Shown here: in pieces, positions 47,724-61,922 of the stretch
Numbering within the stretch: the first letter of the stretch is position 1
Layout of the letters: every line of letters starts with the position of its first letter
Origin: Acidobacteriota bacterium
GTDB lineage: Bacteria > Actinomycetota > Acidimicrobiia > Acidimicrobiales > Microtrichaceae
Reading direction: 5' to 3'
Assembly: GCA_003577145.1 (NCBI GenBank)
Contig: QEUP01000005.1
Location: forward strand, 1-64,000
Length of the DNA stretch: 64,000 nucleotides
Made by a program: the position numbers and the translations under genes
The notes under the pieces: generated by a model
The model's input: only the letters and a program-made list of their open reading frames with translations
What the model was told of the DNA's origin: nothing
The model's database searches: none

Positions 47724-48254
47724 GTGACCGATGTCGGCTTCCTGATCGTCTATCTGGCGTGGGGATTCGGTGTCGCAACCATCGTCGCAGGTCTGGCTCT
47801 GCTCGGGCGATCGCAGGATCGGAGCCCTTCGCCGTCGGGAAGGCAACTGATCGGGTTGGCCGTCACGCTCGTTGGCTGTCTCGGGCTGCTGGCCTCGTTG
47901 GCGTTGCCGTGGATCAGCGGGTTGTCAGCAGGCGACCAGAGGGAGCTGGTGGAATCCGGCTGGACCGGCTTGGACCCGCTGACGACCGGAGCGATCGCGG
48001 GGCTCTGCGGGCTGGCCGGACTGTACGTGCTCTACCGGCGAGGGGGCGGTGTGTACCGCCGGCTCCTGATGCTCTCGACCGGCTGGTGCGTGCTCGGCCT
48101 CGTCGTGGGCAATCTGGTCATCCAGTCGACGACGTCGCGTGGTTCGAGCATGGAGTGGGGTGCCTTCGTGTCCCTGGGCGCGGCACTCGTGGTGATCACC
48201 GGCCTGTACTTGGCCGCGTCAGCTGGCGCACCTGGCTCTCAGGCGGCGCTCTAG
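47724..48254 (+). CDS. Four-helix membrane protein of unknown function
   Basis: The 176-residue protein has four clear membrane helices (FLIVYLAWGFGVATIVAGLAL; LIGLAVTLVGCLGLLASLAL; TGAIAGLCGLAGLYVLY; MLSTGWCVLGLVVGNLVI) plus a last one near the C-terminus. After helix 2 it has LPWISGLSAG, a loop found in many uncharacterised actinobacterial membrane proteins. It lies 50 nt after the previous gene with a -10-like box between them. The 3' end overlaps the convergent GGDEF-EAL gene by 36 nt. Confidence 0.7.
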   Translation: MTDVGFLIVYLAWGFGVATIVAGLALLGRSQDRSPSPSGRQLIGLAVTLVGCLGLLASLALPWISGLSAGDQRELVESGWTGLDPLTTGAIAGLCGLAGLYVLYRRGGGVYRRLLMLSTGWCVLGLVVGNLVIQSTTSRGSSMEWGAFVSLGAALVVITGLYLAASAGAPGSQAAL

Positions 48255-49565
48255 CTGTTCGGCCAGTTCGGGGCGGCCGAAGTAGAAGCCCTGGGCGAGT
48301 GGGCAGTCCATCTCGACCAGTTGCTGAGCCTGCTCTGCCTCCTCGACGCCCTGGGCGCAGGGGGCTATCTGCAGCTCTTGGGCGAGTCGTACGACGTTCC
48401 TGACTATCGTGGTGTCCTCCTCGGACATCCCCAGGCCCTGAACGAAGCTTCTGGGGATCCGCAGCAGGTCGAGCGAGAGCTCGCGTATGGACGAGAGAGT
48501 TGAGTAGCCCGTCCCGAAGTCATCGAGCGCCAGCCGTACCCCGCGCTTCTTCAGCTCTCTGAGCTTGGGCCAGAGGACGCGCCTGTTGTGGCGCAAGGCG
48601 TTCTCGGTCACATCGAGCACCAGATGCTCAGGCGGAAGCCCCGCCGCTTCGTAGGCGGCGACGATGCTACCGACGAACGCCCTGTCCGTCAGTTGACTCG
48701 CCGCGAGGTTCACAGCCACGAAGTAGTCAGGCGCTCCGGGAGTCAAGTTCGACCAGATCTTCACCTGGCGGCAGGCACGCTCGGCCACCCAAGAGCTGAC
48801 TGGAACGGCCAAGGAGGTACGCCTGAGGACCGAGAGGAACGCGCTCGCAGGTATGAGCTTGGTGCCCGACGTCGGGTCCAGCCAGCGCCATCGCAGCAGC
48901 GCCTCGAACCCCACCATGTTTCCCTGGGACGGGGACACGATCGGCTGATAGACGACACGGAACTCGTCCTCCTCGAACGCCTTGCGTATTCGCTCCGGAG
49001 TCACCTCGAAGTTCAGCCAGCTCCTGCTCGTGAAGTCCCTGATGAAGCAACCACCGGGTCCGTCCTCGCGGGCTTCGGTAACCGCCAACCTCGCCTCACG
49101 AACGACCGTTGTCGGATTCAGCTGGCGGTCATGGCTGAGGGTCCCGCCGATGTACCCGATCACCGGCACGGCGTCGCTGCCGACGGTGACCGGGTCAGCC
49201 AGCGCGATGAAGATGTGGTCGCAGATCTGTTGCGCCGCCTCTATCGTGCTGACACGCCGGCAGAGGACTGCGAACTCGGCGCCTTCGTAACGGGCGACGT
49301 CGGCATTGGGGCCCATCAGCTTGCTCAAACGGCCACCGATGGTGCGTAGCACGTAGTCACCGTGGTCAGGGCCGTAGATCTCGTTGATGTCACGGAGGTT
49401 GTCGATTGTTATCAGCAGGAGCACGAAGCGCTCACTGGGATATCTCGCCTGCTCGAGTGCCGCCGAGAGGAATGTGTCGAGTTGCTGGCGGTCAGGTAGG
49501 CCTGTCAGCTTGTCGACAGTGTCACCTGCTGCATTGGGCTGTCTGCGTCTCACCATGGCGGTCAA
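48219..49565 (-). CDS. Degenerate GGDEF-EAL protein (probably inactive in cyclic-di-GMP turnover)
   Basis: The 448-residue cytosolic protein has a GGDEF domain (residues about 17-180) and an EAL domain (about 187-440) and no sensor. The GGDEF site reads EGAEF (94-98), incompatible with diguanylate cyclase activity. In the EAL domain, EALLR (221-225), Asn286 and DDFGTGYS (348-355) are kept. The LExTE motif is LDVTE (317-321), the KID lysine/aspartate is RIP (369-371), and AEGVE is AQGVE (Gln405). Loss of the catalytic-site Lys, Asp and Glu makes phosphodiesterase activity unlikely. Binding of cyclic-di-GMP without turnover, or another signalling role, is possible. It converges on the membrane gene at 47724. 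Confidence 0.88.
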   Translation of the reverse strand: MTAMVRRRQPNAAGDTVDKLTGLPDRQQLDTFLSAALEQARYPSERFVLLLITIDNLRDINEIYGPDHGDYVLRTIGGRLSKLMGPNADVARYEGAEFAVLCRRVSTIEAAQQICDHIFIALADPVTVGSDAVPVIGYIGGTLSHDRQLNPTTVVREARLAVTEAREDGPGGCFIRDFTSRSWLNFEVTPERIRKAFEEDEFRVVYQPIVSPSQGNMVGFEALLRWRWLDPTSGTKLIPASAFLSVLRRTSLAVPVSSWVAERACRQVKIWSNLTPGAPDYFVAVNLAASQLTDRAFVGSIVAAYEAAGLPPEHLVLDVTENALRHNRRVLWPKLRELKKRGVRLALDDFGTGYSTLSSIRELSLDLLRIPRSFVQGLGMSEEDTTIVRNVVRLAQELQIAPCAQGVEEAEQAQQLVEMDCPLAQGFYFGRPELAEQLERRLRARCAS

Positions 49566-51040: not shown

Positions 51041-51297
51041 CGATTGTTGCCTCCAGGTCGCCTTGCTTGCTGGTAACTGCCACCCGATGCCGAATGCCCA
51101 CATGGCCACCGTAGGTGCCAATCCTGGGAATCCCATGGGCCGTTCGACTCATAGGTCCTCTATCGGAGGTCGCGGGCCGGGTTGTACCCCTCAGAACCGG
51201 ATTTGGCTACGCTCGCGGCGCCGGGCCGGCGGCGGGGCCTCGGTGTGTCTGCGGGCGGGAATTGGCAGGATCGCGAAAGGACACGAGAGGAGCCGTG

Positions 51298-52857
51298 GTG
51301 AGCAGAACCATCCCGGGGCGGTGGGCCAGCCGGTTGTGCCGAGCCGTACCGGCGTTCGCCCGAGTGGCCGGCGCCGCCGTGCTGGTGGTGGCCGTGGCGT
51401 TTCTCCCGGGAGCCGACCATTCAGCCCGGGCCGGCACCGGTGCGGTACCGGCGGCTGGTATGGCCTCGCCCCTGGCAGGATCGGTGGCCGCGGCGAACAG
51501 GACGACCGCGGCAATCGGCAACCTACCCGACACCAAGGTCCTCATGGTGGGTGACTCGATCGCCTGGACCATGGGTTTCGACATGACCGGTGCGGTCCTG
51601 ACCGATCACCACATCAGCTCGTTCACCAACGGGGCCCTTCCCTGGTGCGAGCTGATCATAAGGTCACCACTGGTGACGGAATGGGGGACGCTGCAGGAGC
51701 CCTCGAACGCCTGTGACGACTGGCGAGGTGAATGGCAAAGAGCGGTGGACGCCCTGCGTCCTGACGTCGTCCTCTTCTACGTCGGCGGCTGGGAGGTGTA
51801 CAGCCGCATCCTCGGCTACCTCTTCTACATGCCTTTCGCGGGGTCGCTCTACAACGCAGTGGAAGCCGACATCCTCGATGACGCGATCAAGATCCTCTCG
51901 TCGAGGGGCGCTCATGTGGGCTTGGTCACCGCGGGCATCTACATGCGCGAGGACGGCTCCTATTGGTCTTCGAAGCACAAGTGGCGCACCGACCACTTCA
52001 ACAACCTGCTCCGTCAGGCGAATGCGAAGTATCCGTCGCAGACCTCGATGGTGGAGATGGAGGCCTGGCTGTGCCCCAACGATCGCTGCCCGCAGTACGT
52101 GGACGGTTACTGGGTACGGCCCGACGGCATTCACTTCGGACATCAGTTGATGTTCCCGCACCTGCCTCCGAACCCGGCCACCTACTGGATGGCCTCTGAG
52201 GCCCGTCGGCTGCATCTGAAGGTCCTCGGTCGCCCAATCGGTGCCTACGATTCGCTCCAGCGGGCGCCCGGGGGTGCCAGAGCAACCGGTTGGGTCCTCG
52301 ATAGGGACACAGCAGACCCGACCTCGGCGAGTTTCTGGGAGGGGCTGTATCCACATGTGGTCGCGGTCGCAGATCGGTACCGATCCGACATCGAGCGCAT
52401 CTACGGCTTGGGCCCGAACCACGGATTGGTCGTCGACATCCCGTTGTCGGAGGGGTCCCACACTCTGTGCGGCTACGCCCACGACGCCACCGGCGGTGCA
52501 CCGTACGGGGCGATCGGCTGCAAGAGCGTCCACATAACGGGAACACCGTCGGGTGCCTGGGACTCCGTCGCCACCTCACCCGGCAGCCTCACCGTCAATG
52601 GCTGGATGGTCGACTGGGACAGCGCCTCACCCGGCTACGTTCACGTGTACGTCGACGGTGTCGCCACGGCGTCGACTCTCGCAACCGCCAGCCGTTCTGA
52701 CATCGCCCGGCTCTACCCTGCATACGGCAGCCTGCACGGATTCAACCGAGTCGTGCCGGTCGCGTCGGGGCGACACCAGGTCTGCCTCTACGCGATCAAC
52801 CTGACCGGTCCGGGAACGAACCCGTCGCTGGGCTGCCGGTCGGTGGTGGTGCCCTGA
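51298..52857 (+). CDS. Exported SGNH-hydrolase-like protein with two C-terminal secreted repeats
   Basis: The 519-residue protein has a signal or anchor helix (VAGAAVLVVAVAFLPGA) and an SGNH domain with the Ser block VLMVGDSIAWTMGFD, a Gly block LFYVGGWEVYS and the Asp-His pair PDGIHFGH. This is the arrangement seen in the extracellular SGNH domains of acyltransferases such as OafA. After about residue 320 it carries two copies of the domain also present in the MauA-like protein (second copy: GWMVDWDSASPGYVHVYVDG ... GFNRVVPVASGRHQVC). The likely role is O-acetyl-ester chemistry on the cell wall or glycans (inference). GTG 51298 has GAGGAG 5 nt upstream. Confidence 0.78.
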   Translation: MSRTIPGRWASRLCRAVPAFARVAGAAVLVVAVAFLPGADHSARAGTGAVPAAGMASPLAGSVAAANRTTAAIGNLPDTKVLMVGDSIAWTMGFDMTGAVLTDHHISSFTNGALPWCELIIRSPLVTEWGTLQEPSNACDDWRGEWQRAVDALRPDVVLFYVGGWEVYSRILGYLFYMPFAGSLYNAVEADILDDAIKILSSRGAHVGLVTAGIYMREDGSYWSSKHKWRTDHFNNLLRQANAKYPSQTSMVEMEAWLCPNDRCPQYVDGYWVRPDGIHFGHQLMFPHLPPNPATYWMASEARRLHLKVLGRPIGAYDSLQRAPGGARATGWVLDRDTADPTSASFWEGLYPHVVAVADRYRSDIERIYGLGPNHGLVVDIPLSEGSHTLCGYAHDATGGAPYGAIGCKSVHITGTPSGAWDSVATSPGSLTVNGWMVDWDSASPGYVHVYVDGVATASTLATASRSDIARLYPAYGSLHGFNRVVPVASGRHQVCLYAINLTGPGTNPSLGCRSVVVP

Positions 52858-52887: not shown

Positions 52888-53955
52888 CTAGAGGTCGAGC
52901 TCGTCACGCATCAACCCCCGGACCTCGACGAGCTCGTCGTAGTCGTAGAAGAACTGCACCTTCTCATCGATGACACTCGATCCGGTGGGGGGATCGTTGA
53001 GGACGAACTCCACGAAGTGCTCGGCGAAGTCCTCCTCGGGGCTGGCCATGGCGTAGTCGGTGACGAACTCCTCGCTGCCGCCGGGCTGCCCGTCGGGCCA
53101 GAACGCATCGCCCCAGGCTTGGAGATAGGAGTCGGCACGGGCGCAGGAGTCGACGAGGTTGAGCTGTTCTCCGCATTCGGCCTGACCGTTGGGAGATACG
53201 TCCTCGATCTGGCCGGGCTCGAGCGAGAGGAGGTGGGAGATCTCATGGACCACGGTGTGCAGGAACTCCTGGCGGTAGCGGCTGTCTACGATGTCGAGTT
53301 CCAGAGACCAGGTCGAATGGTCGCTGCTGGTGGGCGAGACCGCCCCCAGGATGTTCTGGCGGCCATCGGTGAAGATGACGAAGGTGTCCATTGCCTCCAC
53401 CGTGGCTTCGGGCATCAGCTCACGGGCGAAGTGCCACATGGCGACATGCGCCGGCTCGGGCTCCGGGTAGGGGCCACCCTCGAGCTCGCCGTCCACTATG
53501 TCGTAGACCGCGATGACACTGTCCTCGGGGATCGCCTCGGGCTGTTCCCAGGGTGCCTGTCCACCCCCGCCACCCTCGCCGCCGGGTTGTTGTTCACCGC
53601 CACCCTCGCCGCCGCCGGGTTGTTCGCCGCCGGGTTGTTCGCCGCCGCCGGGTTGTTCTTCACCGCCGGGCTGTTGTCCACCGCCACCCCCGTCCCCGCC
53701 GGGCTCTTCGCCGCCACCGGGTTCTTGGCCGATGGGGCCGCCGTCCCAGGGGACAACCACCTCACCCTCGGGATCGGGGATGAGCTGACCCGTGTCGGGC
53801 CCGACCCCCGGAGGGGCGGTATGGACCGTCGGATTCGTGTTCGCATCCTCAGCGGTCTCAACGGGCCGACTGGTGGCCTGTCCGGCGAGCACGATGCCCA
53901 CGATGAGCAGCGCGGCTATCACCGTCGCCAGAAGTGCCCGTTGTCTCGACGCCAT
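52888..53955 (-). CDS. Membrane-anchored HEXXH metalloprotease-like protein with a Gly/Pro/Glu/Gln linker
   Basis: The 355-residue protein has an N-terminal membrane helix (ALLATVIAALLIVGIVLAG), then about 75 residues of low-complexity GGGEQPGG-like repeats, and a C-terminal domain with the zinc motif VVHEISHLLSL and a downstream EEDFAEHFVEF that could give a third ligand. Four cysteines (ECGEQ, DSCAR) follow. This fits a small gluzincin-type secreted protease; the exact family is not clear. ATG 53955 has AGGAGG upstream. The linker probably spans the cell wall. Confidence 0.7.
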   Translation of the reverse strand: MASRQRALLATVIAALLIVGIVLAGQATSRPVETAEDANTNPTVHTAPPGVGPDTGQLIPDPEGEVVVPWDGGPIGQEPGGGEEPGGDGGGGGQQPGGEEQPGGGEQPGGEQPGGGEGGGEQQPGGEGGGGGQAPWEQPEAIPEDSVIAVYDIVDGELEGGPYPEPEPAHVAMWHFARELMPEATVEAMDTFVIFTDGRQNILGAVSPTSSDHSTWSLELDIVDSRYRQEFLHTVVHEISHLLSLEPGQIEDVSPNGQAECGEQLNLVDSCARADSYLQAWGDAFWPDGQPGGSEEFVTDYAMASPEEDFAEHFVEFVLNDPPTGSSVIDEKVQFFYDYDELVEVRGLMRDELDL

Positions 53956-54093
53956 GGTCGTATTGCCTCCTGAGCGGACCTGCCAACCAGCTTGGCCTCT
54001 TTTCACCAGGATGTGGCATCGGGCCCCTCCCTGGTACTGCGCCGTAGGCTCCGCAGCGTTGTCGGCTGGGTGCTACCACAGGTAGCGCCTCGG

Positions 54094-55926
54094 TCAGCGT
54101 CCCCTCTGGTGCTGGATGAAGAACTGCCAGATGAGTTCGTTGGCGCTGATCTCGTAGCTGGTAGGGCCGACCAACTCCTCGATCCGCTCTTGCTCATCGG
54201 AGCCGGGCCAGGTGTGGCCTGCCGCTCCGACCACGTACAGCATGGCGACCGCTTCGTCGTCGCAGCCGGCGGAGTACGTGAGAAGGCTGACGTTGTCGGT
54301 CACCTGCTCGTCGGTCATCTCGTCTCGGCACCCGTTCCGCAGCGCCCACAGCTGGACAGCCTCGTCCATCGGCTGCAGATCGATGTTCTCGCGGGTCAGC
54401 GTGTAGTCCTCGGTGTAGGACCCGTACGGGTCCCCGGCTCCGTACTCGCCCTCGATGGTGATCCACTCGTCGTCGGTCCCGTGGAACGCCAGGTACGGGA
54501 CCGGTGAACCGGTCTCGCAACCCGGCGGCATCCAGGCGCCTGCCACCACGGCCACAGCCGCGACGCGATCCGAGAGCCGGCAGGCGAGGAGGCTGGCCAT
54601 CTGAGCACCGTTCTCCAGGCCGGTTACGTACACCATCGCCGGGTTGACGCAGGCAAACGCCTCGACCTCGTCCAGCACGGCGCTGATGAACGCCACGTCG
54701 TCGGCGCCCGCTGGCTCCTCGGTCACGTTCCACGAGGGTATTTCGCCGAGCCCCTGAGGGGCGATCGTGATGAAGCCGTTCTCCTCGGCGTACTGGTCCA
54801 TCTCGGACAGGTTGGACTGGACGTTCGCCGGGCTCGAGTAGGCGTGGAGGTTGATCACGGCGGGCAATGGCGTATCCGGATCGTATGACGAGGGCACGAA
54901 GACCTGATAGGAGCGGTCCAGTGAGCCGGCAGAAAGCTCGCGTGCCTGAGCTTCACCGAGCACCAGGCCCGAGTTCGTGCCACAACCCGACGATCGCGTC
55001 ACGAGAGGCGCCGAGCTCTCCTCGGACCCGGATTCGCCCTCCGAGGCAGCCGGATCCGCTGCCTCGGTCTCAGCTTGGACCTCGGTACCGGCGGGCTCGA
55101 CTGCGGTCGTCGTCTCCGAGTCGTCACCTCCGCGCACAGCGAACATGATCGCCAGCAGCGCGATCACGACGAGGACGATGGTGGTCACCAGCAAGGCCAG
55201 GCGGGCCGGTGTCCGTGGGCTGTCCTCGGACGGGTCCGCAGGCGACGTGCTCACTCGGTGCTCGACCGGAGGGGTCACCGGATCGCCGGGCGGGCCACCG
55301 TTGTCAGTTCGTGCGGCAGCGCTCGGTGGGTGGGGGCGAAGTGTCGGTGGCGGGGGTGCAGCGTGCACGGTGCCCGGAAGTGCTGGACGATTGCCGTTGT
55401 CGTGGCTCACTGCGCCTATGCCGAGCTCGCCAAGGGTAGGAGGATCCGGGTCGTCGAGGTGTGAGTAGTCCTCGGCGGAGACCGTGTTCCACGGATCGGC
55501 TACCGCGGCGACGTCGTCGAGGTCTCGCCCGAGCAGTTCGGCCACCTCGGGTATCGAGAAGTCACTCAGGTGACGCAGCGCGATGATCGTGCGGTCAGCC
55601 ACGGACATGGATTCCAGACGTGTGGCCAGCTCAGCCCGTTCGGTCGCGTGAGCATCGCCGGTGACAGATGTGGCGTACAGCGGTTGTTGGCGTCGGTCCA
55701 GCGCCAGGTGCAAGGACATCGCCGCAGCCCACGGGATCGGCCTGTTGCTGACCTTCTGCCAGCGCTCCTCGATGCGCAGCAGTGATTCCTTGGCTACCTC
55801 GATCGCCGAGGTCTGATCACCGAGCAGCCGAAATGCGATGTCGTAGGCAAGCGCTGTCAGCTCCGGTCGTTGGACCTCGAAATCGGAGACGGGCTGAGCT
55901 TCCTGGGTAGGTCGATCTGTCGTCAT
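54094..55926 (-). CDS. Transmembrane protein: sigma-70-like N-terminus, extracellular esterase fold with Ser replaced by Glu
   Basis: The 610-residue protein has three parts. Residues about 20-145 resemble an ECF sigma factor: a region-2-like segment (ALAYDIAFRLLGDQTSAIEVAKESLLRI) and a region-4-like HTH (MSVADRTIIALRHLSDFSIPEVAELLGRDL). After a Pro-rich linker, one membrane helix spans 243-264 (LALLVTTIVLVVIALLAIMF). Residues 315-610 match LpqC/PHB-depolymerase-like esterases (RSYQVFVPSSYD, FHGTDDEW, GAAGHTWPG). The nucleophile elbow, normally GxSxG, reads GLENG (436-440), with Glu438 in place of Ser. It may sense an extracellular ligand and act through a tethered sigma-like domain, or be structural. 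ATG 55926 is chosen; the frame is open for 20 more codons. Confidence 0.75.
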   Translation of the reverse strand: MTTDRPTQEAQPVSDFEVQRPELTALAYDIAFRLLGDQTSAIEVAKESLLRIEERWQKVSNRPIPWAAAMSLHLALDRRQQPLYATSVTGDAHATERAELATRLESMSVADRTIIALRHLSDFSIPEVAELLGRDLDDVAAVADPWNTVSAEDYSHLDDPDPPTLGELGIGAVSHDNGNRPALPGTVHAAPPPPTLRPHPPSAAARTDNGGPPGDPVTPPVEHRVSTSPADPSEDSPRTPARLALLVTTIVLVVIALLAIMFAVRGGDDSETTTAVEPAGTEVQAETEAADPAASEGESGSEESSAPLVTRSSGCGTNSGLVLGEAQARELSAGSLDRSYQVFVPSSYDPDTPLPAVINLHAYSSPANVQSNLSEMDQYAEENGFITIAPQGLGEIPSWNVTEEPAGADDVAFISAVLDEVEAFACVNPAMVYVTGLENGAQMASLLACRLSDRVAAVAVVAGAWMPPGCETGSPVPYLAFHGTDDEWITIEGEYGAGDPYGSYTEDYTLTRENIDLQPMDEAVQLWALRNGCRDEMTDEQVTDNVSLLTYSAGCDDEAVAMLYVVGAAGHTWPGSDEQERIEELVGPTSYEISANELIWQFFIQHQRGR

Positions 55927-56121: not shown

Positions 56122-56982
56122 GTGAGCTTCATGCTCAAGAACGTGTTGGTCACCGGCACGTCCACGGGGATCGGTGAGGCAACCGCTCTTCATCTCGATG
56201 AGCTCGGGTACCGGGTGTTCGCAGGGGTGAGACGAGACGCCGACGCGGAGTCGTTGGCGGAGCGGGGCAGTGAACGGCTGCATCCGGTCATCGTCGACGT
56301 CACCGATGAATCACGGGTGGAGACGGTCCTCGATGACATCCGGTCGATCGTCGGGCCGGCCGGTCTTCACGGGGTGGTCAACAACGCGGCGATCGCAGTC
56401 GGTGGACCGATCGAGTATCTCCCTCTCGATTACTGGAGGCGGCAATTCGAGGTCAACGTGGTCGGATTGGTGTCGGTCACCCGCCTGGCCATGCCACTCG
56501 TTCGGGACGCGCTGGGGCGAGTGATACTGGTGGGATCCATCGGCGGCAAGATCGCAACGCCGATGCTGGGGCCCTATTCGGCCAGCAAGTTCGCGGTCGA
56601 AGCCATCGCCGACTGCCTTCGCATGGAGATGGCGGATTTCGGGATATCGGTGTCGCTCATAGAGCCGGGGCATACACGCAGTGCGATCCGCGCGAAGGGT
56701 CTCCGGATGATCGATGACCTCGAAGAGCAGTTGCCGGCAGAGGCGCTGGAGCGCTATCGACCCAGGTTCGAGCGAATCAGGATCGGTCTCGAGTCCCCGA
56801 CCGGCGACGGAACCGACCCGCTGGTGGTTGCCGGAGTCATAGCGAGGGCCCTCAGAACCGGCTATCCGAAGCCCCGCTATGCGGTGGGCCGAGATGCCAA
56901 GTTGGGTGCCGCGCTGGCCCGGCTGTTGCCGGATCGTGCCCGGGATGCGCTGCTTCGTCGACTGGCCGCGACGATTGAGTGA
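56122..56982 (+). CDS. Short-chain dehydrogenase/reductase
   Basis: The 286-residue classical SDR has TGxxxGIG (VTGTSTGIGEATA), NNAAIAVGGP, and the active-site block GPYSASKFAVEA with Tyr-Lys. The PGHTRS step after strand 6 is typical of hydroxysteroid-type or retinol-like SDRs; the substrate is unknown. GTG 56122 or ATG 56131 could start it. The stop overlaps the LCP start (GTGA), so the two are translationally coupled. Confidence 0.82.
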   Translation: MSFMLKNVLVTGTSTGIGEATALHLDELGYRVFAGVRRDADAESLAERGSERLHPVIVDVTDESRVETVLDDIRSIVGPAGLHGVVNNAAIAVGGPIEYLPLDYWRRQFEVNVVGLVSVTRLAMPLVRDALGRVILVGSIGGKIATPMLGPYSASKFAVEAIADCLRMEMADFGISVSLIEPGHTRSAIRAKGLRMIDDLEEQLPAEALERYRPRFERIRIGLESPTGDGTDPLVVAGVIARALRTGYPKPRYAVGRDAKLGAALARLLPDRARDALLRRLAATIE

Positions 56983-58163
56983 CCCGGCGGCGATCCAGCG
57001 ATGACCCATCGGTTGGCGAGCTGTCGGCCAGACTGAGTGTCATGGCAGAGCGTGGGTCCCGGAAGGGCTCGGGTGCAGAGGGTCCACCGGGTGGGCCTCC
57101 CAAGCAGTACTACGTGCCCGCGCCGGAACGACCACCGGTCGAGAGCCGAGCTCGGCCATCACCGCCCCGCCAGAAGGTGGCTCCACCGGCTCCACCCAAG
57201 GTGCCCCCGGCGCCACGGACCAAGAAGAAGCCGAGAACCCGTCGGTGGGTGCTCATAGGTCTGGGCACCCTGGTGGTGCTGGTCATGGTGTTCGCCGGGT
57301 TCATGTTGTGGAAGTTCTTCAGCATCGAGCGGCTCGACCTCAGCGATGCTCTGTCGACCTCCGGGAACGGGGGCACCAACTACCTGATCGTGGGCTCTGA
57401 CTCGAGGGAAGGTGTCGCAGCGGACGACCCGAACGCGGGGGCCTTCGGTGAGGTCTCGGGCCAGCGGGCGGACACGATGATCGTTCTGCGGGTCGAGCCC
57501 GACCGGTCGTTGATGATGTCGATTCCACGCGACCTGTACGTCACCCTGGCGGGTTCGGGTCAGGAGGAGAGGATCAACGCCGCCTACAACGACGGCCCCG
57601 CATCACTGGTCGACACCGTGGAACAGAACCTGGGCGTTCCCGTCAACCACTACCTCGAGGTGGACTTCGAGTCGTTCGGAGGAATGGTGGATGCCGTCGG
57701 CGGCGTGCCCATCGACTTCGAGTACCCGGCCTATGACTCGAACTCGGGCCTACAGGTCGACTCGGCGGGTACGGTCGTCCTCGACGGAACCCAGGCACTG
57801 GCTTACGTCAGGTCCAGGCACTACACCGAGATCATCGATGGACAGCCGACGACGGATCCGACGGGCGACCTCGGCAGAGTCGAACGCCAACAGGCTTTCA
57901 TGCGAACCGTTCTCGCGGAGATGGGACGCACACGCAACCCCATCGCCTTGATGCGGATCGGTAGCGCCCTTGCCGGTGGTGTACGCATCGACGGTCAGCT
58001 CGGGTTGTGGGACGCCTTCGGCCTGGCCCGACGTCTCGGAGCCCTCGACCCCCAGACCGTGGTGTTGCCAACAGAGCCGTTCACGACACCCGGAGGTGCA
58101 CAGGTGCTGTCGCTACAGGAGCCCGCAGCGGACGCGGTGCTGGCCGAGATGGGGCGAGCCTGA
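56979..58163 (+). CDS. LytR-CpsA-Psr (LCP) family cell-wall ligase
   Basis: The 394-residue protein has a Pro/Lys-rich cytosolic N-terminus, one membrane helix (WVLIGLGTLVVLVMVFAGFML) and the extracellular LCP domain: NYLIVGSDSREG, RADTMIVLRVEP, SIPRDLYV, INAAYNDG, GGMVDAVGGVPIDFEYP, and LAYVRSRHY with the polyprenyl-phosphate-binding arginines. These enzymes attach anionic polymers or arabinogalactan-like glycans to peptidoglycan. GTG 56979 overlaps the SDR stop; ATG 57042 is a shorter alternative without clear ribosome binding site. Confidence 0.9.
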   Translation: MTRRRSSDDPSVGELSARLSVMAERGSRKGSGAEGPPGGPPKQYYVPAPERPPVESRARPSPPRQKVAPPAPPKVPPAPRTKKKPRTRRWVLIGLGTLVVLVMVFAGFMLWKFFSIERLDLSDALSTSGNGGTNYLIVGSDSREGVAADDPNAGAFGEVSGQRADTMIVLRVEPDRSLMMSIPRDLYVTLAGSGQEERINAAYNDGPASLVDTVEQNLGVPVNHYLEVDFESFGGMVDAVGGVPIDFEYPAYDSNSGLQVDSAGTVVLDGTQALAYVRSRHYTEIIDGQPTTDPTGDLGRVERQQAFMRTVLAEMGRTRNPIALMRIGSALAGGVRIDGQLGLWDAFGLARRLGALDPQTVVLPTEPFTTPGGAQVLSLQEPAADAVLAEMGRA

Positions 58164-58180: not shown

Positions 58181-59164
58181 TCAGTTGAGCCGAGGAAGTG
58201 CGAACGGGCCGGTTACCCGCGCGGTCAACCGCCTGCGGATGTCGAGCAGCTGATCGACCGTGATCGGTTCACGGATCTCGTCGACGGCAAGGCCGAGCGT
58301 CAGCTCCTGGCTGGACGCGTGGACCGACGTGACCCGCACGCCCTTGGCGAGCCTTGGTAGCGGGACCGTGAGGCGCTCGGTGAGCCGAGCCGGTGGGCGC
58401 ACATGGCGGCCGGCGACGTTGAGGTCGTGCACCCGCAGGCGGATGCTTCCATTGTGGGCTACGGGCTCCACCTCGACACCCCCCAGCGAACCGAGCCGAG
58501 GATGCTCCACATAGAGGCGGTTCTCCTCCTGAAGCCTCAACTGGAAGGGTGAGTGCATGGACGAAGCCCATTCGTCGAGAGCTCCCTGGCCTACGGATGC
58601 CTCGGCCCTGATCCCTTCGATCAACAACTCGAGGCGAGGGCTGCGCGCGAGGCCGTTGGCATACACGGCAGCGAGCGGCAGCGGATGGAGCGACGGGCCC
58701 GCGATCTTCATGTGGACGAAGTCAGCCCGGACCCACAACCTGTCGATCCGGTGACCGGACCACCTGACCTCCGATGCCTCCACTTCGACGCGACCGGTCA
58801 CAGGCACCTGACCACGCAGGAGGTACTTGGCTCGCATGGTCACAGCTCGTGTGGTGGAGGACTGCACTGCGTCGGTGGTGATCCGTCCGATTGCGGCGAT
58901 TCCGTCGGTGAGTGGGGTGAAAGGGTTGAACGCCAGGGCCTCGTCGCCCAGGCGGCGCATCATGGTCACGCTGTCGCCGAGCGGATCGAGGCGGGCCAGG
59001 TCCGCATCCGGCTCGACTCGCAAGCTGTCTAATACGAGATGTGCCTGATCCTCTCCGAACGGGAACTCGACCTCGCTGCCCAGGAGGCGCCGGCCGGCCT
59101 CGGTCAGGAGGTCCGCCAGCAGTCGATTGGGGGCACGGCGCGAAAGCTCGTCTGGGTCTTCCAC
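58181..59164 (-). CDS. DUF2993 (LmeA-like) lipid-binding protein
   Basis: The protein has the DUF2993 body: VTMRAKYLLRGQVPVTGRVEVEASEVRWSG, FVHMKIAGPSLHPLPLAAVY, and EPVAHNGSIRLRVHDLNVAGR. This beta-rich phospholipid-binding domain is found in mycobacterial LmeA, which takes part in lipomannan chain growth. GTG 59164 gives 327 residues without an obvious signal peptide; the frame remains open upstream but that part overlaps the divergent cyclophilin promoter and start. The start is therefore uncertain. It converges on the LCP gene. Confidence 0.7.
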   Translation of the reverse strand: MEDPDELSRRAPNRLLADLLTEAGRRLLGSEVEFPFGEDQAHLVLDSLRVEPDADLARLDPLGDSVTMMRRLGDEALAFNPFTPLTDGIAAIGRITTDAVQSSTTRAVTMRAKYLLRGQVPVTGRVEVEASEVRWSGHRIDRLWVRADFVHMKIAGPSLHPLPLAAVYANGLARSPRLELLIEGIRAEASVGQGALDEWASSMHSPFQLRLQEENRLYVEHPRLGSLGGVEVEPVAHNGSIRLRVHDLNVAGRHVRPPARLTERLTVPLPRLAKGVRVTSVHASSQELTLGLAVDEIREPITVDQLLDIRRRLTARVTGPFALPRLN

Positions 59165-59260
59165 GAAGACAGTCTGCCAGGATGCGGGCGAGCTCGGAGG
59201 TCTGCCTCCTGCCGACCGGTCGTATACGGTTGGCCGTCCGAATCGAGGCGAGAGGAAGAC

Positions 59261-59827
59261 ATGCCGAGCGAATGTCCACAGCCCGACGGCTCCAGCCCGC
59301 GCAAGACGAGCTTCGATGCCGCGATGCCGATGTGCATCGACCCAGCCCAGGAGTACCGGGCGGAGATATTGACGTCCATGGGAGCCATGTCGGCCTTCCT
59401 CCATCCGGGGAAGGCGCCCAACACGGTTAACAACTTCGTGTGCCTCGCGCGGTACCACTACTACGACGGCTTGGTGTTCCACCGCGTGATCCGGGGCTTC
59501 ATGATCCAGGGCGGCTGCCCGGAGGGATCGGGACGGGGCGGACCGGGGTATCGCTTCGCCGACGAGTTGCCCGCACCGGGCGCCTACCAACTCGGATCCC
59601 TGGCCATGGCCAATGCCGGGCCCGACACCAACGGGAGCCAGTTCTTCATCGTGAGCGGTCCTTCCGGCGTGAGCCTCCCGCCGCAGTATTCGCTGTTCGG
59701 TCAACTGATAGGCGGCTTGGAGGTCCTCGACGCGATCGAGAAGGTGGCAACCGGGCCACAGGACCGACCGGTCGAGCCGGTGACGATCGAACGTGTGATC
59801 ATCGAGGAGTCGACGGCTCAGAGCTGA
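59261..59827 (+). CDS. Cyclophilin-type peptidyl-prolyl isomerase
   Basis: The 188-residue protein has the cyclophilin core: APNTVNNFVCLARYHYYDGLVFHRVIRGFMIQGG, AMANAGPDTNGSQFFIV and YSLFGQLIGGLEVLDAIE, with Arg, Phe and Gln of the active site visible. It catalyses cis-trans isomerisation of prolyl bonds. No signal peptide or membrane helix: cytosolic. AGAGGAAG lies just before ATG 59261; the frame is open upstream but is antisense to the divergent DUF2993 gene. Its end overlaps the MFS gene by 10 nt. Confidence 0.93.
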   Translation: MPSECPQPDGSSPRKTSFDAAMPMCIDPAQEYRAEILTSMGAMSAFLHPGKAPNTVNNFVCLARYHYYDGLVFHRVIRGFMIQGGCPEGSGRGGPGYRFADELPAPGAYQLGSLAMANAGPDTNGSQFFIVSGPSGVSLPPQYSLFGQLIGGLEVLDAIEKVATGPQDRPVEPVTIERVIIEESTAQS

Positions 59828-61218: not shown

Positions 61219-61381
61219 CGTCGCGATGCTAGGAGCGGGACGAGCCTGATGTCATGGCTCGGCCGCTCGAACGGCGGAAGTAGATCCATGGGTGAGGCGA
61301 TTGCGGACCGGGAGCCATCCCGTTGCGAGTGAGGGCCTGGCGGACCGGCACCCCCTCGCCCCGCCGCGGTGCAGGGGCGCG

Positions 61382-61387
61382 TAGTCT
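61382..61387 (+). promoter_or_regulatory. Candidate -10 box for a leaderless transcript
   Basis: TAGTCT ends 7 nt before ATG 61395, the spacing of a leaderless transcript. It supports that start over the later in-frame GTG 61461. Confidence 0.4.
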
Positions 61388-61394
61388 CGGATGG

Positions 61395-61922
61395 ATGCAA
61401 TCACTGGTCCTCCGAGAGGTGGTGGCGACAAGCGGGGCAGGAACCGCGCGCGCTCACCGGGTGATCAGCTTCCAGACAGCCAGGCGAGCCGTGACCCTGC
61501 TCGCGTTCGTCGTCGTGGTCGCGGCGTGTGGTGGGCCCAGCGAGCCGGTACGCCAAGACGGCGGTGTGGTCGAGGGTGGGGAATTGCGGCCCTCCGCGCT
61601 GCGGGTGGGGGACTGCATCACCGACCAGGAACCGACTCCTGGCTATGTGGAGGTGGTTCCGTGCGAGGAGTCCCACGTACGCGAGGTGTTCCTGCTGAGC
61701 GAGCTGGAGGTCGATCGCTACGACCGTGACGAGATCGACGAGTCCGCACGAGGGATCTGCGGGGACCCCGAGGCGGTTGCCGGGTACGCCGGTGGCACAG
61801 CGGACCTCGCCGTGTTCTGGTATGTGCCGACCGAAGCCGAGTACGACGAAGGCGAGAGCTTCTTGGTCTGCGCGCTCCGCAGCGCCTCCGACGAGCCCCT
61901 GACCGGGTCACTGCACCGTTAG
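61395..61922 (+). CDS. Septum-formation-family lipoprotein
   Basis: The 175-residue protein has a hydrophobic segment ending in a lipobox AAC (LLAFVVVVAAC). The domain LRVGDCITDQEPTPGYVEVVPC, then SHVREVFLLSEL, ends with paired cysteines (RGICGD, LVCAL), the pattern of the actinobacterial 'septum formation' domain. The name comes from homologues; a role in division is not shown. ATG 61395 fits the -10 box; GTG 61461 would give a more compact signal peptide. It ends 5 nt from the convergent PhoD-like gene. Confidence 0.75.
   Translation: MQSLVLREVVATSGAGTARAHRVISFQTARRAVTLLAFVVVVAACGGPSEPVRQDGGVVEGGELRPSALRVGDCITDQEPTPGYVEVVPCEESHVREVFLLSELEVDRYDRDEIDESARGICGDPEAVAGYAGGTADLAVFWYVPTEAEYDEGESFLVCALRSASDEPLTGSLHR

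Follow-up and report, generated by a model that had tools for sequence, protein, structure and literature searches.

In groups ECF52 and ECF53, a sigma factor is tethered at the membrane and set free by proteolysis (PMC8999054, PMC5826349). These groups carry a sigma part that is taken to work and a zinc-finger anti-sigma (ZAS) module, and ECF52 has a carbohydrate-binding domain. A sigma-like domain is also found in PhyR, an anti-anti-sigma factor of Alphaproteobacteria. PhyR is soluble, ends in a C-terminal receiver domain, and has a NepR-like partner.

We analyzed a stretch of 64,000 nucleotides (contig QEUP01000005.1), here called the window, and found a gene whose product joins a sigma-like domain, a membrane helix, and an esterase-like domain (Table 1). 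The gene occupies one open frame of 610 codons, which starts with ATG at 55926, ends with the stop codon at 54094-54096, and has GGAG a few bases upstream of the ATG. The original prediction had seen one membrane helix, and we found it at residues 244-264. All six Cys residues of the fusion protein are in the ectodomain, with none in the N-terminal half and none before residue 315. This fits an N-in/C-out topology, the outside being oxidizing. Comparison with other genomes gave a more general picture than was first seen, in that the protein belongs to a conserved family whose members are ex-sigma proteins tethered to the membrane, many of them carrying a dead esterase on the outside.

Table 1. 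Features of the fusion gene and its neighborhood (window coordinates)
Feature	Coordinates	Strand	Basis
Whole gene: pseudo-sigma / TM / pseudo-esterase, 610 aa	54094..55926	-	ORF, translation, syntenic orthologues
Sigma2-like region, residues 13-79; RLLGD and W66 retained, region 2.2 Asp and region 2.4 Asn altered	55690..55890	-	
Sigma4-like region, residues 92-148; HTH core retained, recognition helix acidic and four residues shorter	55483..55653	-	
Juxtadomain motif DYSHLDDPDPP, residues 153-163; counterpart of the family motif PPPG(V/I)SYRDLGDP	55438..55470	-	Alignments
Pro-rich, Cys-free linker (residues 164-243) and TM helix (residues 244-264)	55135..55437	-	
Extracytoplasmic alpha/beta-hydrolase domain (dPHAscl type 1 / feruloyl esterase-like), six Cys, residues 309-610	54097..55002	-	
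Nucleophile elbow GLENG, residues 436-440; Ser replaced by Glu438	54607..54621	-	
Short-chain dehydrogenase, between fusion gene and LCP gene	56122..56982	+	
LytR-CpsA-Psr (LCP) gene, divergent neighbor at orthologous loci	56979..58163	+	
Cyclophilin-type PPIase, conserved neighborhood	59039..59827	+	

The N-terminus had been read as resembling sigma regions 2 and 4, and our comparisons bear this out. A profile of 18 N-terminal domains of the family matched 17 genuine ECFs by hhalign at 98.3% (E 1.7e-14). The NCBIfam model SigE-fam_strep matched the window protein at 4e-10, and residues 1-165 alone at 2.4e-11, with scores below the curated cut-off. Pfam Sigma70_r4_2 (5.9e-5) and Sigma70_r2 (0.051) also matched the N-terminus, both below their curated cut-offs. 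In a tree, the pseudo-sigma domains form one branch apart from all genuine ECFs (support 100/99). The alignments further show that the motif PPPG(V/I)SYRDLGDP directly follows the sigma-like domains of the family and is absent from genuine ECFs.

AlphaFold2 (AF2) predicts a sigma fold for the domain (pLDDT 90, pTM 0.83). Compact ECFs are commonly predicted by AF2, so the compactness of the model is weak evidence. Sigma factors or PhyR lead the PDB matches, with anti-sigma-bound CnrH and SigW the best (VIA Z 9.9); Foldseek E values reach no better than about 1e-3, and for helical proteins a Z below 13 counts as modest. Because these structural scores are modest, we rest sigma ancestry on the sequence evidence. 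Both sequence and prediction argue that the cytoplasmic domain derives from an ECF sigma2-sigma4 unit and keeps its predicted fold; in fold and ancestry it resembles a functional ECF.

The residues of a working sigma factor have fared differently. The original prediction had proposed a check of whether those contacting core RNA polymerase and the -10 and -35 DNA are kept. In most or all of the 18 members, the residues needed to contact the beta' clamp and the -10 and -35 elements are lost. Compared with genuine ECFs, the ED(V/L) motif of region 2.2 has its Asp in 1 of 18 and its Glu in 3 of 18. The region 2.4 Asn, the region 4.1 Arg, and the recognition-helix Lys are retained in none of the 18, and the region 4.1 Gln in one. 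The recognition helix lacks four residues in every member, and the net charge of this stretch ranges from -5 to 0, versus +1 to +5 in genuine ECFs. Family members retain 12 to 26 of 50 ECF consensus residues, versus 28 to 49 in genuine ECFs. As judged from the alignments, most residues for the three contacts are gone, together with the basic recognition helix. These losses favor the predicted alternative of a sigma scaffold without promoter function. For the family as a whole, they speak against the other alternative, outside-to-inside signaling with a working sigma output.

By these measures the window copy has degenerated least, and it is basal in the family. It has the most consensus residues (26 of 50) and retains R51, W56, W66, and Asp77; its recognition helix has a net charge of -5 and the four-residue deletion. 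With its own sequence left out of the family profile, it scored 90 bits against that profile; against an ECF profile it scored 75 bits, whereas its orthologues scored 6 to 36 bits. It is the first branch on the pseudo-sigma side of the tree, a position within that side that is not firmly supported. Since its 26 residues fall just below the 28 of the least conserved genuine ECF, the window copy may have residual RNA polymerase binding, and a working sigma output in this copy stays weakly open.

The most concrete rival to a scaffold role is sigma mimicry at the membrane, in the manner of PhyR. According to this model, the ectodomain senses an envelope ligand, upon which the degenerate sigma domain sequesters an anti-sigma factor and so frees a genuine ECF. 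The sigma-like domain of PhyR likewise has an ECF structure with degenerate promoter and RNA polymerase regions (PMC8103513), and our domain finds some of its best structural matches in PhyR and in ECFs bound to anti-sigma factors. A profile match to the PhyR family, though weak (E 0.0015), points the same way. In contrast, we recognized no anti-sigma gene beside the fusion gene. Helix 4 of class I anti-sigma factors binds the N-terminal part of region 2.1 (PMC7406223), and this part is shortened in most orthologues. Anti-sigma factors make a second contact with basic residues of the recognition helix, and these are lost as well. We regard mimicry of this kind as unlikely, though it is the rival that survives best.

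A second rival is a one-component ECF that follows the ECF52/53 logic, with an outside ligand leading to cleavage at or near the TM helix and release of a working sigma factor. Its appeal lies in the order of sigma, TM helix, and ectodomain, which resembles that of ECF48, ECF52, and ECF53 (PMC8999054, PMC5826349), and in the ECF score and retained residues of the window copy. However, the recognition helix and contact residues are degraded, the cytoplasmic part has no Cys and no zinc anti-sigma module, and the window copy groups with its more degenerate relatives. We consider a one-component ECF improbable. A dead-esterase sensor that releases active sigma is likewise unlikely, and is least excluded for the window copy.

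The outer domain had been described as PHB-depolymerase-like, and this description held. The ectodomain matched NF050058 (extracellular PHA-scl depolymerase type 1) with an E value of 1.8e-38 and 132.6 bits, short of the curated cut-off of 150. The nearest PDB sequences are feruloyl and acetylxylan esterases, with E values down to 2.4e-21. The AF2 model (pLDDT 95.7, pTM 0.94) has an alpha/beta-hydrolase fold and matched acetylxylan esterase 9j07/9j08 best, with a TM-score of about 0.80. In model numbering, a strand (119-129), Glu at 130, and a helix (131-142) have the geometry of a nucleophile elbow.

The original prediction of GLENG at the nucleophile site, with the Asp and His kept, was correct. 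Glu438 aligns opposite the GxSxG Ser of feruloyl and acetylxylan esterases; Asp486 and His571 are retained, and the Ser-Asp-His triad is therefore incomplete. We also found a change that had escaped the earlier reading, the oxyanion-hole His-Gly having become His-Ala (residues 361-362). The absence of Ser extends to the orthologues, but Glu438 itself is not conserved: among 10 complete fusions, the elbow residue is Ser in none, Gly in 9, and Glu in 1, the window copy. Two partial fusions also lack Ser. GxSxG is present in nearly all standalone homologues, and many have a lipobox. Sequence and prediction together indicate that the outer domain is an intact predicted alpha/beta-hydrolase without its serine nucleophile.

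The window genome has two lipoprotein esterase paralogues, on contigs C27 and C45 (L002 and L003), in which Glu likewise replaces the nucleophile Ser (GNEMG and GHEMG). One Glu-type paralogue of this genome is in tandem with a Ser-type paralogue. We found no further Glu-type ectodomain homologues among the best matches fetched from 397 genomes of the order. Two families of the order contain a separate pseudo-esterase lineage (L029, L141, L147, and L140) in which Ala (GFAVG) or Gly (GFGVG) stands where the nucleophile should be. In a tree, the window ectodomain is placed with L002 and L003 (99/96), apart from the remaining fusion ectodomains, which form a separate group (98/97). A single origin of all fusion ectodomains was not rejected by the AU test (p 0.17). 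Either the ectodomain was exchanged in the window lineage, or the paralogues derive from the window copy, or long branches are misleading.

The Glu residue raises a third rival, in which the ectodomain has stayed an active enzyme that uses Glu438 as its nucleophile or base in place of Ser, and the sigma-like domain merely anchors or localizes the ectodomain. Glu is common to the three paralogues of the window genome (GLENG, GNEMG, GHEMG), which have the His in place and form one clade (99/96), and the kept Asp486 and His571 would allow chemistry via Glu438. Against this, the oxyanion His-Gly is altered in all three Glu-type paralogues, and in the syntenic orthologues the elbow residue is Gly, with other triad residues also missing from several. 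We think this no likelier than a one-component ECF.

We collected orthologues by whole-genome searches. Among 33 genomes of the Microthrixaceae (Acidimicrobiales), nine besides the window genome have a complete fusion. One more genome has an additional, more degenerate fusion (G008), and three have partial fusions (contig ends, frame breaks, or an absent sigma part). Orthologues with Ser and without sigma similarity had been named as the case against the initial reading; the syntenic fusions lack Ser and are sigma-derived. In three genera (five, one, and two genomes), the orthologue has just the sigma-like domain and TM helix, with only 26 to 39 residues outside; one of these, in G031, is cut at a contig end. 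Genus g10 has no fusion-type gene at the LCP locus, in loci read through on both sides. Beyond the family, we found no complete fusion in 397 sampled genomes of the order and no pseudo-sigma domain in the sampled order genomes, with few candidates scored per genome, a depth at which distant fusions may escape. Two outside matches to the sigma-part profile were rejected as pseudo-sigma domains because they are ordinary ECFs. At this locus, G005 and G012 also encode a second, soluble pseudo-sigma protein without a TM helix, beside the LCP gene (L076:3407-4348, plus strand, and L135:1986-2657, minus strand). Both fall on the pseudo-sigma side of the tree.

In the closest orthologue pairs, dN/dS is about 0.02-0.2 and synonymous changes far exceed non-synonymous ones, which indicates that the fusion protein is maintained by purifying selection. 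Long open frames and synteny are kept across about a dozen genera. Synteny, selection, and recurrence led us to reject chance or an annotation artifact. A recent independent fusion in the window genome is opposed by the grouping of its N-terminal domain with the family (100/99) and by the syntenic locus. A functionless chance fusion decaying in several lineages would account for the high divergence and for the genomes without an ectodomain or without an in-frame sigma part, but with dN/dS far below 1 in close pairs and with frames and synteny preserved so widely, we find such a relic very hard to believe.

A divergent (head-to-head) LCP gene and a cyclophilin gene recur at most orthologous loci. 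In the window, a short-chain dehydrogenase gene lies between the fusion gene and the LCP gene; we did not see it at this position in the orthologous loci that we compared. Since LCP proteins link glycopolymers to the cell wall, cell-wall assembly is the likeliest setting. The conserved neighborhood suggests a cell-wall role for the fusion protein.

Other genes nearby are recorded here as observations. Directly downstream of the fusion gene, a gene at 52888-54006 (minus strand) encodes a secreted-looking Gly/Glu/Pro-rich protein with a zinc-protease-like HEISH (HExxH) motif and no Pfam match. The protein encoded at 51115-52857 (plus strand) has a GDSI motif like that of SGNH hydrolases, and no Pfam match. 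At 48219-49565 (minus strand), the translation is that of a GGDEF-EAL-type protein, probably a degenerate cyclase, with YEGAEF at the GGDEF site. A lipoprotein-like gene at 61323-61922 (plus strand) has a weak Septum_form match just below the Pfam cut-off. In G012 and G008, translations reveal an FKBP-like lipoprotein gene within the same divergent cluster as the LCP gene.

On balance, we favor a membrane-anchored pseudo-sigma/pseudo-esterase that probably neither transcribes nor hydrolyzes and would instead serve as an envelope receptor or adaptor. Where present, the dead esterase pocket would bind a ligand in the envelope, which is probably a cell-wall glycopolymer that bears esters, or its precursor. 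Docking of a cytoplasmic partner at the membrane would fall to the repurposed sigma fold and the adjacent motif (SYRDLGDP; DYSHLDDP in the window), and this docking would be coupled to LCP-dependent cell-wall assembly. The originally predicted role of the dead esterase as a ligand sensor is plausible, with the esterase domain missing from several orthologues. The core of the function lies in the inner domain and TM helix, since an ectodomain is absent from several genera. More tentatively, the family might be a new class of transmembrane receptor, in which an ex-sigma interaction domain and a dead-hydrolase ligand-binding domain are wired to LCP-dependent cell-wall assembly and the window copy stands, as a living intermediate, partway from a tethered ECF to full repurposing.

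A sigma factor lineage has seemingly gone from transcription into a transmembrane protein, and its members form a gradient, with the window copy least degenerate and stripped-down forms at the far end. Confirmation of this would extend the repurposed sigma fold, best known from PhyR, to a membrane-tethered setting beyond Alphaproteobacteria. It is also a caution that profile matches alone do not suffice to call such proteins sigma factors or esterases, given that they lack the residues for either activity. A role in cell-wall assembly can be tested directly through the constant LCP neighbor.

In the open literature searched, with the group models of the ECF re-classification outside the comparison, we found no published account of such a fusion protein; its parts have known relatives, and their combination and degeneracy were not found described there. 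The esterase part shares its fold and, in the window, its Asp and His with type 1 PHA depolymerases and feruloyl/acetylxylan esterases (NF050058; 9j07), which include lipoprotein paralogues in the window genome. Unlike those enzymes, it has Glu for Ser (Gly in orthologues), has lost the oxyanion Gly, and has a TM helix after a cytoplasmic domain instead of a lipobox. A looser analogy is with the RsgI-type anti-sigma factors of Clostridium thermocellum, which are described as membrane proteins whose outer domain senses substrates and signals inward (PMC12203970). Their inner part is an anti-sigma domain, whereas that of the fusion protein is sigma-derived.

Like ECF52 and ECF53 (SCO4117 of Streptomyces coelicolor), the fusion protein is from Actinomycetota and has an ECF-type N-terminus, a TM helix, a Pro-rich stretch, and an extracytoplasmic binding domain. 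It has the TM helix and extracytoplasmic extension that mark ECF48, ECF52, and ECF53. It differs from all three in lacking a ZAS module between sigma domain and TM helix, as the position of its first Cys indicates, and from ECF52 and ECF53 also in its lost sigma contacts and in an ectodomain that is a dead esterase. Like PhyR, it has a degenerate sigma-like domain with the ECF fold, and the two match in structure. Unlike PhyR, it ends in a TM helix and an alpha/beta-hydrolase with no Response_reg match, and it has no known counterpart of the NepR-like partner. ECF52/53 and PhyR are thus the nearest known kinds, and the fusion protein departs from each in a defining feature.
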